Assembly (NCBI GenBank): GCA_017964005.1
Contig: JAGCSR010000038.1
Span: 1 to 64,000, forward strand
Origin: Clostridiales bacterium
Lineage (GTDB): Bacteria > Bacillota > Clostridia > Saccharofermentanales > Saccharofermentanaceae
Reading direction: 5' to 3'
DNA length: 64,000 nt
Below, in pieces: positions 47,530-60,694 of this stretch. Position 1 is the first letter of the stretch. The number at the start of each line of letters is the position of its first letter. The notes under the pieces are model-generated. The model saw nothing but the letters and a program-made list of their open reading frames with translations, searched no databases and was not told where the DNA came from. Made by a program: the position numbers and the translations under genes.

Positions 47530-48096
47530 ATGGGGAAAAAGAGGAACAAAAAAGCGATCATCATAACGGCAATGATAATGCTGGTTGGCATTCTGCTTGT
47601 GCTGACGGGTCTTTTCGGAGGCTGGTTTACAGGGCTATTCTATAAGGATTTCGATTTCAAAAACATCAAGTCCGAGGACTTAGGCAAAGAGATAAAGACT
47701 GACATAAAAGTCTACTACGAGCCTATGGAGATACCGGGCAGGGCGCTGCAGATGTTCGGAGACTTTGACGGCGATTCGGCGTTTATCCTGCTGGATTTCG
47801 CCGGCGTGGGCGAGAAAGGCGAACGCCTGTATTTCTCGAAATACTATCAGCATATCACGATCCAAGGGAAGCTCAGGGCCTTGGATGACGCCGAATACAA
47901 AGACCTCTGCGACAGGCTCTATGAAGCCTACGACCCTTATTACTACAAGAACATCGAAAGCGGAAAATGGAAAGATGTCACGCTGGAAGAATTTCACAAG
48001 ACGCTGATAGAAGATAGGATCGGTGTTCTTCCTTACTGCATGGAAGTCAGTTCGATCGGCGCAATTAACTGGCTGCCTTTTATCCCCGCGGGATAG
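47530..48096 (+). CDS. Membrane domain of frameshifted Ntn hydrolase (5' part)
   Basis: 188 residues: one N-terminal membrane helix (8-30), a domain of about 140 residues outside the membrane, and the beginning of a second helix (INWLPFIPAG) cut by a TAG. The next frame continues that helix in reading -1 (IVIFVLSLVVEICLVF). The full-length paralogue at 59072-60694 encodes both parts in one protein, so this and 48114-49163 are two pieces of one gene separated by a one-base change in the GGG run at about 48090. It can also be read as a small membrane protein by itself. Ribosome-binding site TAAGG. Confidence 0.7.
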   Translation: MGKKRNKKAIIITAMIMLVGILLVLTGLFGGWFTGLFYKDFDFKNIKSEDLGKEIKTDIKVYYEPMEIPGRALQMFGDFDGDSAFILLDFAGVGEKGERLYFSKYYQHITIQGKLRALDDAEYKDLCDRLYEAYDPYYYKNIESGKWKDVTLEEFHKTLIEDRIGVLPYCMEVSSIGAINWLPFIPAG

Positions 48097-48113
48097 TCAT
48101 CTTCGTACTGTCT

Positions 48114-49163
48114 TTGGTTGTTGAGATATGCCTCGTTTTCAAGCTCAAAAAGCGGATCGTGCTGCCAATCGTTTACGGGCTTCTGATAGTTGTTCCCGCG
48201 GTCATGTTCTTCACTCAGATCAGGACCATGCTGACGATAAAGAAGGCGGGTGACGGATTATATACGATGAGAAACATCGAGTGCACCGATACGCAGGGCA
48301 TGCTTGATTCGGGCGCGGCTAGCGTCAACGATCTATTGAACTGGATCTTTAACAGGCATCTGTACGGCATCAGGCCCCAGATCGAGGTTGAAAAGTACGG
48401 TTGTGCGGCTTTCTCGGCAGTCACGCCTGACGGGGACCATCTTTTCGGGCGCAACTTCGATTACCCTGAGACAGATACCGTGCTGTTATATTCGCATCCC
48501 GAGGACTGCTATGAATCGATCGGTGTCGCCGACCTTGGCATCTTCGGTGTAGGACAAAATTACCCGGTAAGTCCGGATTCTCCTATCGGCAAACTCCTAA
48601 TGACCGTCACTCCTTATGCGATCGTGGACGGCATGAACGAGAAGGGCGTCGGCGCCGGGATCCTTGAACTCGCTACCGAGGAAATCCATCAGGATAACGG
48701 CAAGCCGGATCTTTTGATCTTCTGCGCGGTCAGGGCGGTCCTTGATAAATGCGCCTCGGTCGATGAGGCACTCAAGCTGCTTTCTTCCTACGATATGCAT
48801 TCAGACCTCGGAGTAACATATCACCTGTTCATAACGGACAAGACCGGCAGATATGTTGTCGTCGAGTGGCTCGACGGGGAGATGGTAACCGTGGAGCATC
48901 CGTGCTGTACCAACAGCGTTATCGCGCCCGGAAAGCATTACGGTGAAGGCGCTCCTGATGAGAGACTCCAGACGATTGAACAAAGCTTAGACAAAGGCAA
49001 CGTAACTGAAAAGGATGCGATGACGATCCTCGGGAAAGTCAGAAACGATACAATGACCGAATGGTCCTGCGTTTATAATCTTGACGACTTCACCGTTGAT
49101 ATATGTCTTGACGGTGATTACAGTAAGGTCTATACCTTCAGCGCGGATGATCTGCGAAAATAA
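48114..49163 (+). CDS. Linear amide C-N hydrolase (choloylglycine hydrolase-like), frameshifted 3' part
   Basis: Ntn-hydrolase of the conjugated-bile-acid-hydrolase/penicillin-acylase group. After a membrane helix (about 15-33), the presumed nucleophile is Cys97 in YGCAAFSA, followed by the family motif HLFGRNFDYPETD and YAIVDGMNEKGVGAG; VVVEWLDG and TNSVIAPG also fit. It would cleave a linear amide outside the cell; substrate unknown. The frame opens at TTG 48114 without a clear ribosome-binding site, which is expected if it is really the continuation of 47530-48096. Compare the intact paralogue at 59072-60694. Confidence 0.82.
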   Translation: MVVEICLVFKLKKRIVLPIVYGLLIVVPAVMFFTQIRTMLTIKKAGDGLYTMRNIECTDTQGMLDSGAASVNDLLNWIFNRHLYGIRPQIEVEKYGCAAFSAVTPDGDHLFGRNFDYPETDTVLLYSHPEDCYESIGVADLGIFGVGQNYPVSPDSPIGKLLMTVTPYAIVDGMNEKGVGAGILELATEEIHQDNGKPDLLIFCAVRAVLDKCASVDEALKLLSSYDMHSDLGVTYHLFITDKTGRYVVVEWLDGEMVTVEHPCCTNSVIAPGKHYGEGAPDERLQTIEQSLDKGNVTEKDAMTILGKVRNDTMTEWSCVYNLDDFTVDICLDGDYSKVYTFSADDLRK

Positions 49164-55500: not shown

Positions 55501-57699
55501 ATGTTCAAAAAAACTTTATCAGCAATGTGTGCAGCGGCAATGGTCGTATCGATGTTCGGAGTTTGCTCCACTGTTTTGGCAGACGATGATAATAACTACT
55601 CCATAACTTTTGATCCGAACGGCGGATCGGGTACTATGGATGCGCAGACGATGCCCGTGGGAGTGAAGACACCGCTTAACGCCAACAAGTTCGAATACAA
55701 GGTAAACGTGACATACGACACGGCCGGCGGAACTCCCATTAATACAGATGTACTTGAATATCCGTTCCAGGGGTGGACTTCAATGTCACAGGTAACCGAG
55801 ACGGCTACAAATATGGGCTTCTGGTCTATCAGGTTCCCTAACAATGTCCAGGTCTCACATAATGATGAGACGGGTGTAGATACAGTTACTGTTGAGGCAC
55901 AGAGTTATACTTGGGAGAAGGCAAACTCCGAAGCTATATATCTTGAACCGCAGGCCGATTACAAGCTCTCGATCAAATACCGTATGGACGAAGATCTTAA
56001 GCATCTGTCAGCCGGGAATCCGGATGAGAATATGAGATTTACGGTTATGTCGGATGTCAGCAACGGAAATAACGATCCTTCACAGTACACTCTCGGGAAA
56101 TTCATATATGAGACTGAGGCTACGGATGCCGATGTTTGGCACGAAGGAGTCTTGACGTTTAAAACTCCCGAGTCGGGCGTCGTATATCTGTCCACCAATT
56201 ACGGCAATCTGTCGGACGGACGCACATACAAGATAATGTATAAAGATATGGAGATCATAAAGGTCAATATCAAGGATGATGAGATCACTCCTGTTCCCGA
56301 GGCACTGTTCTATACTGACGGAGCGGAAGTTGCCAATATCGGCGAGAGCAAGGACGGAATATTCGAATTCAAGGCAACCTGGGATATGGATAAGTCGGTT
56401 GCTTTGCCGAAGCCTGTAAAGTCCTGTTCCGTTTTTGCCGGATGGACTGATGGTAACAAGACTTATGCTGCAGGCGATAAGATCTCCCCGACAGAAGATA
56501 TCAAGCTTACGGCACTTTGGGAGTCGGAACTCATTCACGATTGGGGCGATGCGGAATATAAGTGGTCAGACGACAACTCGACCTGTACGGCACAGAGGGT
56601 TTGCAATAACGATCCTGCGCATGTTGAGACTGAGACTGTTGATTCCGTAAAGAGCGCTGTCAAGTGCACATGTACGGAAGACGGATTATTCATATTCACT
56701 GCCAAGTTTACCAACCCTTCATTCACAGAGCAGGAGACAGAGAGCCTGGACGAACCTGCAACAGGACATGACTGGGGCGAGTGGAAAGATACAAAGGCAG
56801 CAACAACACAGGCGGAAGGTGAGCAGACACGCACATGTTCCGCATGCGGTATAACCGAAACCAGATCAGTCCCGAAGCTTATACCTGCTCCCACTGCAAA
56901 GCCCACTGAGCCTGCTAAGGAAGATGATGTAACCCTGACCCTCGATAAGACTAAGGTCAACATCATATGCGGTAAGAATGATACCCTCAAGGCAACACTC
57001 AAGGGTGCTGAAGGGAATATCACCTGGAAGACTTCCGACAAGAAGATCGCAACGGTAGACGCCAACGGTAAGGTGACAGCTAAGATGGCAGGAACCGTAA
57101 CTGTCACTGCAAGCGCTGCAGGAAAGACAGCTGAGTGTGAAGTAACGGTCCTCTATAAGGATGTAACCAACATCAAGGATTTCTGGTATGCTCCTACCAA
57201 CTATCTGACAGCTGCAGGAGTCGTAAAGGGTTACGATAAGCAGACGAACTTCAAGCCTGCGAATATGTGCACCAGAGCGCAGATGGTAACGTTCATCTGG
57301 AGACTAATGGGAGAACCTGCACCTAAGACTAAGACATGCAAGTTCAAGGACGTCAAGGAGAAGGATTACTTCTACAAGGCTTGTATTTGGGGCAACGAGA
57401 ACCACATTGTCGAAGGATATAAAGACGGCACATTCGGTCCTCAGATCGTATGCGCAAGAAAGCATGCCGTAACATTCCTTTGGAGACTGGCAGGACAGCC
57501 CAAGCCTGCATCTACAAAGAATAAGTTCAAGGACGTTAAGGAGAAGGATTACTTCTACAAGGCAACCCTGTGGGCATCCGAGAAGGGTATCCTGGCAGGC
57601 TATTCCGACGGAACATTCAAGCCGGACGGCGACTGCCTGAGACGTCAGATGGTAACCTTCCTCTATAAGTACGACAAGTTCGTAAATGGTAAAGGGTAA
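55501..57699 (+). CDS. Cell-surface protein with InlB-type repeats, Ig and SLH domains
   Basis: 732 residues. Signal peptide (1-28), Listeria-Bacteroides (InlB B-type) repeats near 33-75 and about 285-345 (ITFDPNGGSGTMDAQTMP; FAGWTDGNKTYAAGD), a CBM-like beta region between them, a CSACGITETRSVP segment typical of clostridial surface proteins, a Big_2 Ig-like domain (about 475-550) and three SLH repeats (555-732). Attaches to the cell wall, probably for adhesion or substrate binding; no catalytic domain. The C-terminal 260 residues are nearly the same as in the 28396 lyase. A GNAT gene starts 11 nt after its stop. Confidence 0.85.
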   Translation: MFKKTLSAMCAAAMVVSMFGVCSTVLADDDNNYSITFDPNGGSGTMDAQTMPVGVKTPLNANKFEYKVNVTYDTAGGTPINTDVLEYPFQGWTSMSQVTETATNMGFWSIRFPNNVQVSHNDETGVDTVTVEAQSYTWEKANSEAIYLEPQADYKLSIKYRMDEDLKHLSAGNPDENMRFTVMSDVSNGNNDPSQYTLGKFIYETEATDADVWHEGVLTFKTPESGVVYLSTNYGNLSDGRTYKIMYKDMEIIKVNIKDDEITPVPEALFYTDGAEVANIGESKDGIFEFKATWDMDKSVALPKPVKSCSVFAGWTDGNKTYAAGDKISPTEDIKLTALWESELIHDWGDAEYKWSDDNSTCTAQRVCNNDPAHVETETVDSVKSAVKCTCTEDGLFIFTAKFTNPSFTEQETESLDEPATGHDWGEWKDTKAATTQAEGEQTRTCSACGITETRSVPKLIPAPTAKPTEPAKEDDVTLTLDKTKVNIICGKNDTLKATLKGAEGNITWKTSDKKIATVDANGKVTAKMAGTVTVTASAAGKTAECEVTVLYKDVTNIKDFWYAPTNYLTAAGVVKGYDKQTNFKPANMCTRAQMVTFIWRLMGEPAPKTKTCKFKDVKEKDYFYKACIWGNENHIVEGYKDGTFGPQIVCARKHAVTFLWRLAGQPKPASTKNKFKDVKEKDYFYKATLWASEKGILAGYSDGTFKPDGDCLRRQMVTFLYKYDKFVNGKG

Positions 57700-57710
57700 A
57701 GAAGACCGTT

Positions 57711-58520
57711 TTGGATAATTACGTTGACGAAAGAGACTATAAGCTTCTTGAGAATGACAGGTATACATTCTCTGTTTTGGCGAGGATAATTCGAGGGGAG
57801 AATTCTCTTCTCCTGTCTGACCATGAGAGGATAATAATCTGCTTTACAGGGCAACCGTATCCTGTCTGGATATGGACGCCGGATGACGCCTCGGAAGATG
57901 AGATGGAGCGTGCCTACAGATTGGCAGGAGAGAATGGTCTTTTGGACGGCGAACATCACTTCAACATGAAGTATGAGCTTGCGGAGTTCTTCATTAGCAG
58001 GGCTAAGTCGGAAGGGATCGTTTTCGATATCACGATGAATATGTATGCATACGATTGTCCGGAACCGATCGCACCCCGAGATCCTGCGGAAGGTGAGATG
58101 CATAAGTGCACCGGAGAAGATCTTGATGCGGCTGTGGATTTCTTCGAGGACTTCTTCAATGCCGTGGGTATAGATAAGCAGAGCCGGGAAGAATACCGGA
58201 CCATGGCAGAAGAAAATATTGCGGACGGTTATCTGTATCTTTGGAAGGATCCTTCGGGAAGATTCGTGTCCAGCTGCAACTGGCATCCCGCCAACGACCT
58301 GGCATCCATCGGGCTGGTGTATACGCGCAACGAGGAACGCAGAAAGCATTACGCCGAACATCTTGTCTATCAGGTCACCATGATCGCAAAGGATGCAGGC
58401 TACACTCCCATGCTCTATACGGACGCGGACTATACGGCTTCCAACGCATGTTACGAGAAGATCGGGTATGTCCTGAGGGGGAAGCTCTGTACTGTTGGTA
58501 TCAGTCACAGTGATGACTGA
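57711..58520 (+). CDS. GNAT-family N-acetyltransferase (FR47-like)
   Basis: 269 residues. N-terminal cap, then a GNAT core with SCNWHPANDLASIGLVYTRNEERRKHYAEHLVYQVT and YTASNACYEKIGYVLRGKL. Substrate unknown. Start is a TTG (57711) 11 nt after the SLH protein's stop; AAAGGG is distant and no ATG fits, so the exact start is uncertain. Followed 12 nt later by another GNAT gene. Confidence 0.82.
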   Translation: MDNYVDERDYKLLENDRYTFSVLARIIRGENSLLLSDHERIIICFTGQPYPVWIWTPDDASEDEMERAYRLAGENGLLDGEHHFNMKYELAEFFISRAKSEGIVFDITMNMYAYDCPEPIAPRDPAEGEMHKCTGEDLDAAVDFFEDFFNAVGIDKQSREEYRTMAEENIADGYLYLWKDPSGRFVSSCNWHPANDLASIGLVYTRNEERRKHYAEHLVYQVTMIAKDAGYTPMLYTDADYTASNACYEKIGYVLRGKLCTVGISHSDD

Positions 58521-58532
58521 GGGAGGTTTGAC

Positions 58533-59066
58533 ATGAAGCTGGTATTCCCTGATATAACTTACAAAGACAAAGCGATTGACTACATAGACGAGTTCTATGA
58601 ATACGGATCTGAGATCAACGGGAGCGGAGGGCTGGACCGGTATCTCAGGGAATGGAATTCCACTTACGAAGAGTGGCTCAAGAAGGTCCTTAAAGATATG
58701 GATATAGCCAATATAGAAGAATCGAGGGTTCCGGCTCTTACGTATTTTTATGTGCGCGAAGAAGATGACAGGATCGTCGGCATGGTCAATATCCGTCTGG
58801 CATTAAACGACTTCCTTCGTTCGGAGGGCGGGCATATCGGGTATTCGGTAAGACCCACCGAGAGGCGTCGACATTATGCTACGGAGATGCTCAAGGCCGC
58901 ATTGAAGGTCACTGATACCATCGGGATAAAAGACGTCCTGGTCTCGTGCGACAAGGACAACGCCGCGTCGGCCGGAGTTATCAAGAACTGCGGCGGAGTC
59001 TTCAGGAACGAAGTCTATTGCGAGAGTTTCCAAGAGACGCTGCATATGTATGTGATCAGAAGATAA
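58533..59066 (+). CDS. GNAT-family N-acetyltransferase
   Basis: 177 residues of a common Firmicutes GNAT type: LKLVFPDITYKDKAIDYIDEF, GHIGYSVRPTERRRHYATEMLKAAL (loop RRRHYA), and VSCDKDNAASAGVIKNCGGVF. Substrate unknown. TGAGGGAGGTTTGAC precedes the ATG. Convergent with the Ntn-hydrolase gene (5-nt gap). Confidence 0.86.
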   Translation: MKLVFPDITYKDKAIDYIDEFYEYGSEINGSGGLDRYLREWNSTYEEWLKKVLKDMDIANIEESRVPALTYFYVREEDDRIVGMVNIRLALNDFLRSEGGHIGYSVRPTERRRHYATEMLKAALKVTDTIGIKDVLVSCDKDNAASAGVIKNCGGVFRNEVYCESFQETLHMYVIRR

Positions 59067-59071
59067 TTTCT

Positions 59072-60694
59072 TTATTTACCGTAGTGATATGCCTTGCTGT
59101 AGTTCTCGTCCATATAGACATCAGCGGAAAACTTACTGAGGTTATATACGGATGACCACTGTGTAAAGTTGGCCTGGCTTACATCATCCAGCAGATCTCT
59201 TGCCTGTTCGGCAGTTAAAGTATTGTTTGCCAAAGCCAGCTTTTTTTGCAGGACCGGAAGTCTCCAATCGGCTTCTTCGTCGAAGCGGTCGCCGGGGGTT
59301 ACGACAGAGTTTGTTACGGCATTCAGTTCGTTGACATACATCTCGTCATCCATCCATTCGACTACCACTGAGCGCCCCGATTTGTCCGCGATGAACAGGT
59401 GCTGGGAGACATTGTTGTGGGTGTGGATGTCGTAGTTCCCCAGGAGAGCTACGGCATCGTCAACAGTGGCGCAGCGGTCGAGCAGGACGCGGATGGCAGT
59501 ATAGATGAACAGGTCGTCTTTATATCCATTCTGATGAAGTTCGCCGATGGCCAGTTCGAGTGTGCTTACGCCCAGACCTTTCTCGTTGACTCCGTCCAAT
59601 ACAACATAAGGGGTTGCGGCCATCATGAACCTGCCGAGAGGTGAATCCGGGTCGATCTCGTCAGTGCCTCTTCCGATCCCGAGTACGGCAAGATCTGCCA
59701 TGGCATACGATGCGTAACCGTCGGGAGGATCCATATATATCATGACCGCATCGGTCTCGGGATATTCGAAGTTGCGCCCGAAGAGGACGTCTCCTTCGGG
59801 AGTCTTTGCCGAGAAAGACGAGCACGCGTACCTGCCCGAATCGAGAGTGATGGGACACAAGCCGTGATACTCGGCTCTGCTGATCCAGTCAAGTAATTCC
59901 GGGTCAGAGGTGATGTTTGCCGCAAGCATATCGTCAAGTTTTAACTGTCCCTTGTACTCCATGTAGTAGACGCCGACATCGTCTTTCCTGATGTTGCACA
60001 TGGCTCCGAATTGTCTGTTGAACAGGATGGCGAAGATAATGAACGCCGTGACCGGCACGATCACTACAATGATCAATGCGATCTTCAGAACTGACTGTCT
60101 TGATATTATCGAGATCCATAAGATCAAGGCAGCGATAAGGAGCACAGTTCCCAAGATTAAGGCAACGGTCCTTACGATCTTTATCGTCTCGGCATCAGTC
60201 GAAGTCACCTCGACAAAATAAACGGATATGGAGCTTCGGATCAGGTCTTTCTCTTCTTCGGTAACTTCATAACCGTCCATTGTCTTTGCCAGTGACTCCA
60301 TATAGGAGATCATGAAAGATTCTGTCTCTTCCTTCATCCAATCCGGAGTTTTTCCGACTGTGCCTGTCAGTGTAACAGTAAAATTTCCCAGGGTATTAGA
60401 GTCGAACTTCTTACTGATATTGTATGGCATGATGATTCGCATGTAAGTATCATCATCGCAGCTAAAGACCCATTTGTTATAGTCGTAAGAGAATTTTCCA
60501 GTATCTTCGGAATAAACAACAAAGGGTGACAGATTATCTTCGTTCGCCCGGATATGAACGGTCTTGCCGACGGTCTCATCCGTAAAGGTACTAACGTCGT
60601 CTGACGGAGTAAGTGACCTTACGAACAGTCCCGCAAGGATTGCGCATATGCCAAGGACTGTAATGATTGATGCGGTTATTATCTTCTTCTTCAT
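59072..60694 (-). CDS. Membrane-tethered linear amide C-N hydrolase
   Basis: 540 residues. Helix 1 (about 5-26), a domain of about 145 residues, helices 2 and 3 (about 173-196 and 202-225), then a propeptide-like stretch and an Ntn-hydrolase domain (about 290-540) with presumed nucleophile Cys291 (YACSSFSA), VLFGRNFEYPETD, and VVVEWMDDEM. If the N-terminus is inside, the topology puts both soluble domains outside the cell. The internal Cys suggests autoproteolysis that frees the catalytic chain. Its substrate could be a bile-acid, acyl-amide or lactone-type molecule. The broken paralogue is at 47530-49163. GAGGGGAATCTGTTC precedes the ATG. Confidence 0.86.
   Translation of the reverse strand: MKKKIITASIITVLGICAILAGLFVRSLTPSDDVSTFTDETVGKTVHIRANEDNLSPFVVYSEDTGKFSYDYNKWVFSCDDDTYMRIIMPYNISKKFDSNTLGNFTVTLTGTVGKTPDWMKEETESFMISYMESLAKTMDGYEVTEEEKDLIRSSISVYFVEVTSTDAETIKIVRTVALILGTVLLIAALILWISIISRQSVLKIALIIVVIVPVTAFIIFAILFNRQFGAMCNIRKDDVGVYYMEYKGQLKLDDMLAANITSDPELLDWISRAEYHGLCPITLDSGRYACSSFSAKTPEGDVLFGRNFEYPETDAVMIYMDPPDGYASYAMADLAVLGIGRGTDEIDPDSPLGRFMMAATPYVVLDGVNEKGLGVSTLELAIGELHQNGYKDDLFIYTAIRVLLDRCATVDDAVALLGNYDIHTHNNVSQHLFIADKSGRSVVVEWMDDEMYVNELNAVTNSVVTPGDRFDEEADWRLPVLQKKLALANNTLTAEQARDLLDDVSQANFTQWSSVYNLSKFSADVYMDENYSKAYHYGK

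Follow-up and report, generated by a model that had tools for sequence, protein, structure and literature searches.

A predicted membrane-anchored Cys-Ntn hydrolase proenzyme with a lineage-restricted OB-fold module in Clostridia

Described Cys-Ntn hydrolases and the clostridial protein

The precursors of isopenicillin N acyltransferase, acid ceramidase and NAAA are textbook Ntn proenzymes with an internal Cys. Acid ceramidase self-cleaves before Cys143 and NAAA at Cys126, and in both enzymes the two halves remain attached after cleavage (PMC5915598; PMC9140057). A gene encoding a protein with the same type of fold was analysed in a 64,000 nt stretch of clostridial DNA (the window: positions 1 to 64,000 of contig JAGCSR010000038.1, GenBank assembly GCA_017964005.1), and its product, the window protein, was compared with the described systems.

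Acid ceramidase and NAAA (MEROPS C89) share with the window protein the fold, including the segment that precedes the nucleophile, the internal Cys and the Arg/Asp catalytic pattern (PMC5915598), but they are soluble lysosomal animal enzymes with a larger helical alpha-subunit and with neither an OB fold nor membrane helices. Isopenicillin N acyltransferase (MEROPS C45), whose precursor and mature folds both align with residues 242-540 of the window protein, is a soluble fungal enzyme of 14% identity that transfers acyl groups to 6-APA. Bile salt hydrolase and penicillin V acylase (MEROPS C59) have the same catalytic fold (17-26% identity), whereas their Cys is exposed by removal of Met or of a short leader, the enzymes are cytosolic or secreted, the OB module is absent and their pocket Asn is not kept in the window protein. 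The single-helix and lipoprotein Cys-Ntn hydrolases of Clostridia and others (NF040521, PF02275, PF03417) have in common with it the catalytic domain, an alpha-like segment, the internal Cys and extracytoplasmic anchoring; in contrast, they carry one helix or a lipobox without an OB-fold domain, and their Cys is found at residue ~89-126, versus ~280-311 in the forms fused to the OB-fold module. Weak likeness to DUF6709 (PF20456) was detected in 5/22 N-terminal regions (best E 2.6e-4), but profile searches gave no match in the window protein or in its own genome, and no paper on DUF6709 was found in a literature search.

Architecture and catalytic domain

The gene is a real open reading frame (Table 1), and its 540 residues are arranged in the order helix, OB-fold domain, two helices, Ntn hydrolase. 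The AlphaFold2 model (alignment of 61 sequences, mean pLDDT 91.4) predicted helices at residues 2-23, 168-198 and 202-224; a beta domain separates helix 1 from helix 2, and the Ntn fold follows helix 3. The original prediction of three helices and a domain of ~145 residues was thus matched by three helices and a domain of ~140 residues. The N terminus is basic, as is the short loop that joins helix 2 to helix 3, which by the positive-inside rule would place both the OB domain and the enzyme outside the membrane. Lipobox-bearing relatives are independent support for an extracytoplasmic enzyme; together with the single-helix relatives, they agree with the membrane anchoring and external catalysis that had been proposed, the topology being a prediction.

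Table 1. Coordinates of the features in the window (residue numbers refer to the 540-aa protein unless stated otherwise)
Feature	Position	Strand	Basis
Whole gene, 540 aa	59072..60694	-	Open reading frame and model
First membrane helix (predicted), residues 2-24	60623..60691	-	Model and hydropathy of relatives; preceded by basic residues (inside)
OB-fold domain (predicted outside membrane), residues 28-168	60191..60613	-	Separate model, pLDDT 89; OB-fold matches
Second membrane helix (predicted), residues 168-198	60101..60193	-	Model
Third membrane helix (predicted), residues 202-224	60023..60091	-	Model
Segment from membrane to nucleophile, residues 235-290, alpha-subunit counterpart	59825..59992	-	Alignment to precursor structures (2x1c, 5u81, 6dxw) starting at residue 238-242
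Cys291, predicted nucleophile; predicted autocleavage site Ala290-Cys291	59822..59824	-	Invariant in 61 sequences
Catalytic domain, residues 291-540, Ntn fold	59075..59824	-	Pfam CBAH and AAT; Z ~23 to bile salt hydrolase and penicillin V acylase
N-terminal part of second copy, 188 aa (first helix, OB-fold domain)	47530..48096	+	N-domain profile, E 4.2e-55
C-terminal part of second copy (remainder of helix 2, then helix 3 and the hydrolase); Cys at frame residue 97	48114..49163	+	43% identity; Pfam CBAH from residue 97
One-base frameshift site splitting the second copy	48086..48100	+	Reading frames; relatives in frame

Two Pfam families were matched above their cut-offs: CBAH (PF02275, linear amide C-N hydrolases) over residues 291-496 (55.5 bits, cut-off 20.4) and AAT (PF03417, isopenicillin N acyltransferase type; 41.9 bits, cut-off 23.2). 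Both matched all 61 aligned sequences. The NCBIfam model NF040521 (C45 autoproteolytic acyltransferase/hydrolase, C45_proenzyme; cut-off 85) scored the window protein at 69.9 bits and a second copy in the window at 82.5 bits, both below the cut-off, and several short relatives above it (85.4-97.3). The window protein has Cys residues at positions 17, 79, 233, 280, 291 and 408, and the CBAH match begins exactly at position 291, the Cys that had been picked out as the nucleophile. Its context is SGRYA-C291-SSF; the residue before it is Ala290, and among the fused sequences this position is Gly in 23/25 and Ala in 2/25.

In the alignment of the window protein with 60 relatives, C291, R307, N308, N462 and R478 were kept in 61/61 sequences. 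Position 310 is Asp in all but one of the 61, the exception being the window protein, which has Glu; Asp was counted in 24/25 fused sequences. A catalytic set of C291, R307, E/D310, N462 and R478 is supported by this pattern. From residue 290 onwards the model could be aligned with both bile salt hydrolases and penicillin V acylases (Z ~23); it also aligned with the isopenicillin N acyltransferase precursor 2x1c over residues 242-540 (Z 22.4), and with the precursors of acid ceramidase (5u81) and NAAA (6dxw) over residues 239-533 and 238-531, respectively (Z 20.1 each). The residues before the nucleophile also aligned with mature isopenicillin N acyltransferase (2x1d). At the level of sequence, profile matches to NAAA (E 0.043) and acid ceramidase (E 0.91) were not significant. 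The modelled protein has the alpha-beta-beta-alpha fold of the Cys-Ntn superfamily (Z 20-23) with a Cys nucleophile and an invariant Arg/Asn/Arg set, and with Glu at position 310; the Pfam matches, invariant residues and fold matches bear out its earlier assignment as an Ntn hydrolase with a Cys nucleophile.

A scan of the sequence collection gave 80 loci with relatives. The Cys is internal in nearly all of them: in most short forms it lies in the residue range given above, and the typical short relative has a single N-terminal helix or lipobox followed by the Cys ~60 residues on. A few Prevotella and truncated relatives show no helix, which depends on the start codon chosen in the analysis. 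The internal position of the nucleophile had been regarded as out of the ordinary. Because the same Cys is internal in the 60 aligned relatives, and in the precursors of acid ceramidase, NAAA and isopenicillin N acyltransferase, it is ordinary for the superfamily. The enzyme belongs to a known superfamily as one of its ordinary members, and an internal nucleophile is expected there.

Two GNAT acetyltransferase genes (Pfam; 57711-58520(+) and 58533-59066(+)) adjoin the hydrolase gene and are directed towards it, and 55501-57699(+) encodes a 732-aa secreted protein whose C-terminal stretches look repeat-like and S-layer-homology-like by eye. No recurrent neighbour gene was found across 27 loci beyond closely related strains.

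The N-terminal module: fold, distribution and second copy

When the N-terminal module was modelled alone (pLDDT 89), its domain best matched the OB folds of unrelated proteins (AspRS, MCM, SSB, YgiW), none of them specific. The best Foldseek E-value was 1.6e-3 and the OB-fold rows had Z ~7; three Tetrahymena chains with Z ~8 were set aside as relatives of the OB domain (rmsd near 15). Since only general OB-fold matches were obtained, no ligand can be named for this domain. No named family matched the fused N-terminal architecture above a curated cut-off, which fits the earlier remark that the architecture was not recognised from described families, and no paper describing the order helix, OB fold, two helices, hydrolase was found in the open literature.

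A profile of the module gave 73 matches in 42/188 genomes of the order, all within one of 30 genera. Sixty-six of these were in intact fused frames of related genomes (rows with an open frame >520 aa), and the remainder were frameshifted or at contig ends. No stand-alone module was found in the 188 genomes, three apparent cases being located at contig ends. In a class-wide sample, the module was present in the same genus alone (1/222). About a third of the bacterial family to which the window belongs carries the module. Fused proteins turned up in other records of the collection scan too. For one of these, L088, a 100-genome sample of its own family gave L088 itself only; a second family appears to have the module at least sporadically. 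The kind of organism is indicated by record names such as Saccharofermentans sp. and Ruminococcaceae and Oscillospiraceae bacteria of rumen and gut. Short relatives were also seen in rumen Prevotella (L128, L136, L145, L148, L153, L156, L158), in a family that is mostly clostridial, possibly by transfer between phyla.

In the tree of the hydrolase domain, all the fused proteins fell in one starred clade of 41 (support 100/100). Four short forms (L072, L074, L075 and L118) are nested in it, with a lipobox visible in three, suggesting loss of the module with a change of anchor type; the tree requires two architecture changes. These four and L036 (6202-7233), which is outside the tree, are short lipoprotein-type hydrolases. 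Ka/Ks ranged from 0.04 to 0.17 in four close pairs; the N-terminal domain had values of 0.10-0.15 and the catalytic part 0.05-0.09. The 66 intact frames and Ka/Ks values well below 1 in every part put the architecture far beyond chance. With one supported clade and low Ka/Ks, these sequences indicate that the module is under purifying selection, old, kept and selected, and not required by the enzyme family at large. The fused OB-fold/three-helix module is the unusual part of the protein: a real variant, restricted to a lineage, for which the libraries searched hold no name. In our reading, an extracytoplasmic N-acyl-amide hydrolase carries it as a lineage-specific module for anchoring or docking.

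The architecture had been reported to occur twice in the window. A second homologue is indeed present (hydrolase parts 43% identical), but it is divided into two frames by a -1 frameshift at ~48090, inside or at the start of helix 2, where its close relatives have an uninterrupted frame. In genome G054 (G054:C51), another -1 split was found close to this position, where helix 2 starts; in the two fused copies, from different genomes, the -1 shift is at 48086-48100 in the window and at ~3072-3199 in L081. A programmed frameshift was rejected for the second copy, and the two frameshifted copies, out of ~68 from draft genomes, are probably pseudogenes or assembly errors, because no convincing slippery heptamer was visible by eye and the close relatives are in frame. 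A natural two-gene split form was likewise rejected, since the N-terminal module never stands alone.

Predicted fate of the proenzyme and its probable substrate

With a probability of about 0.72, the window protein is an extracytoplasmic, membrane-anchored Cys-Ntn amide hydrolase proenzyme that cleaves itself, stays on the membrane and acts on N-acyl amides. We infer autocleavage, retention, the substrate class and the role of the OB domain as follows. The chain would be anchored by its three helices, with the OB-fold domain outside, between helices 1 and 2; helix 3 would be followed by an alpha-like segment of ~55 residues and then by the catalytic domain. Cys291 would cleave the Ala290-Cys291 bond in cis and become the new N terminus, and the freed Cys291 would be the nucleophile, acting with Arg307, Glu/Asp310, Asn462 and Arg478. 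The alpha-like segment would remain bound to the catalytic domain, holding the enzyme on the membrane. Its substrate, most likely a linear N-acyl amide, would be taken up by the active site at the membrane or close to it. The most likely role of the OB-fold module is in positioning the enzyme or in binding of a ligand or partner.

Autoproteolysis had been expected to release the enzyme from its anchor, which could then serve as a timer or as a site for shedding an extracellular enzyme. The cleavage site is C-terminal to all the helices, and the architecture would permit release, but the two parts of acid ceramidase and of NAAA remain joined (PMC9140057; PMC5915598). Because of this, and because residues 235-290 are the counterpart of the alpha part (in the fold, residues 238-290 align with this part both in such precursors and in mature isopenicillin N acyltransferase), release is not expected from this analogy and we consider it unlikely: by the same analogy, the catalytic part would stay membrane-held after cleavage at 290/291. 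Many relatives are lipoproteins, which also suggests that retention on the membrane matters. A regulated anchor is very unlikely: here the OB-fold/three-helix module would sense or bind an outside factor and would control whether a surface N-acyl-amide hydrolase is autocleaved or released. If true, bacteria would have a new type of controlled shedding or activation. It is also very unlikely that the hydrolase part no longer turns over substrate and now serves a membrane module as its sensor or as a structural element: Glu replaces Asp at position 310 of the window protein and the neighbour genes indicate no pathway, but the remaining catalytic residues are invariant, Asp310 is the rule among the fused sequences, and the catalytic part is under strong purifying selection.

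A linear N-acyl amide, in which an amine or amino acid bears a fatty acyl or a different acyl group, is the most likely substrate, on the basis of fold and family. The Pfam CBAH match, the structural similarity to bile salt hydrolases (Z ~23) and the gut and rumen hosts of the records with relatives would fit a membrane-bound bile salt hydrolase or penicillin V acylase, with the reaction of the named family moved to the surface in gut bacteria. However, the scores were far under those of the specific models: 38.3 bits for the bile salt hydrolase model NF038245 (equivalog cut-off 350) and 15.4 bits for the penicillin V amidase model (cut-off 600). Many members are from the rumen, where bile is scarce. 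The Asn that lines the pocket for bile salts (Asn79 as numbered in PMC8228234) corresponds to Glu380 of the window protein in the alignment; this position is E, Q or S in the fused relatives, and E, Q, S, M, A and others across the family. A bile salt is an unlikely substrate, and the bile salt hydrolase or penicillin V acylase reaction at the surface is improbable.

Proteins matching the Pfam choloylglycine hydrolase family here should not be counted as bile salt hydrolases. Acid ceramidase and NAAA may have a membrane-bound counterpart among bacteria of rumen and gut in the window protein and its fused relatives, which have kept an OB-fold module.
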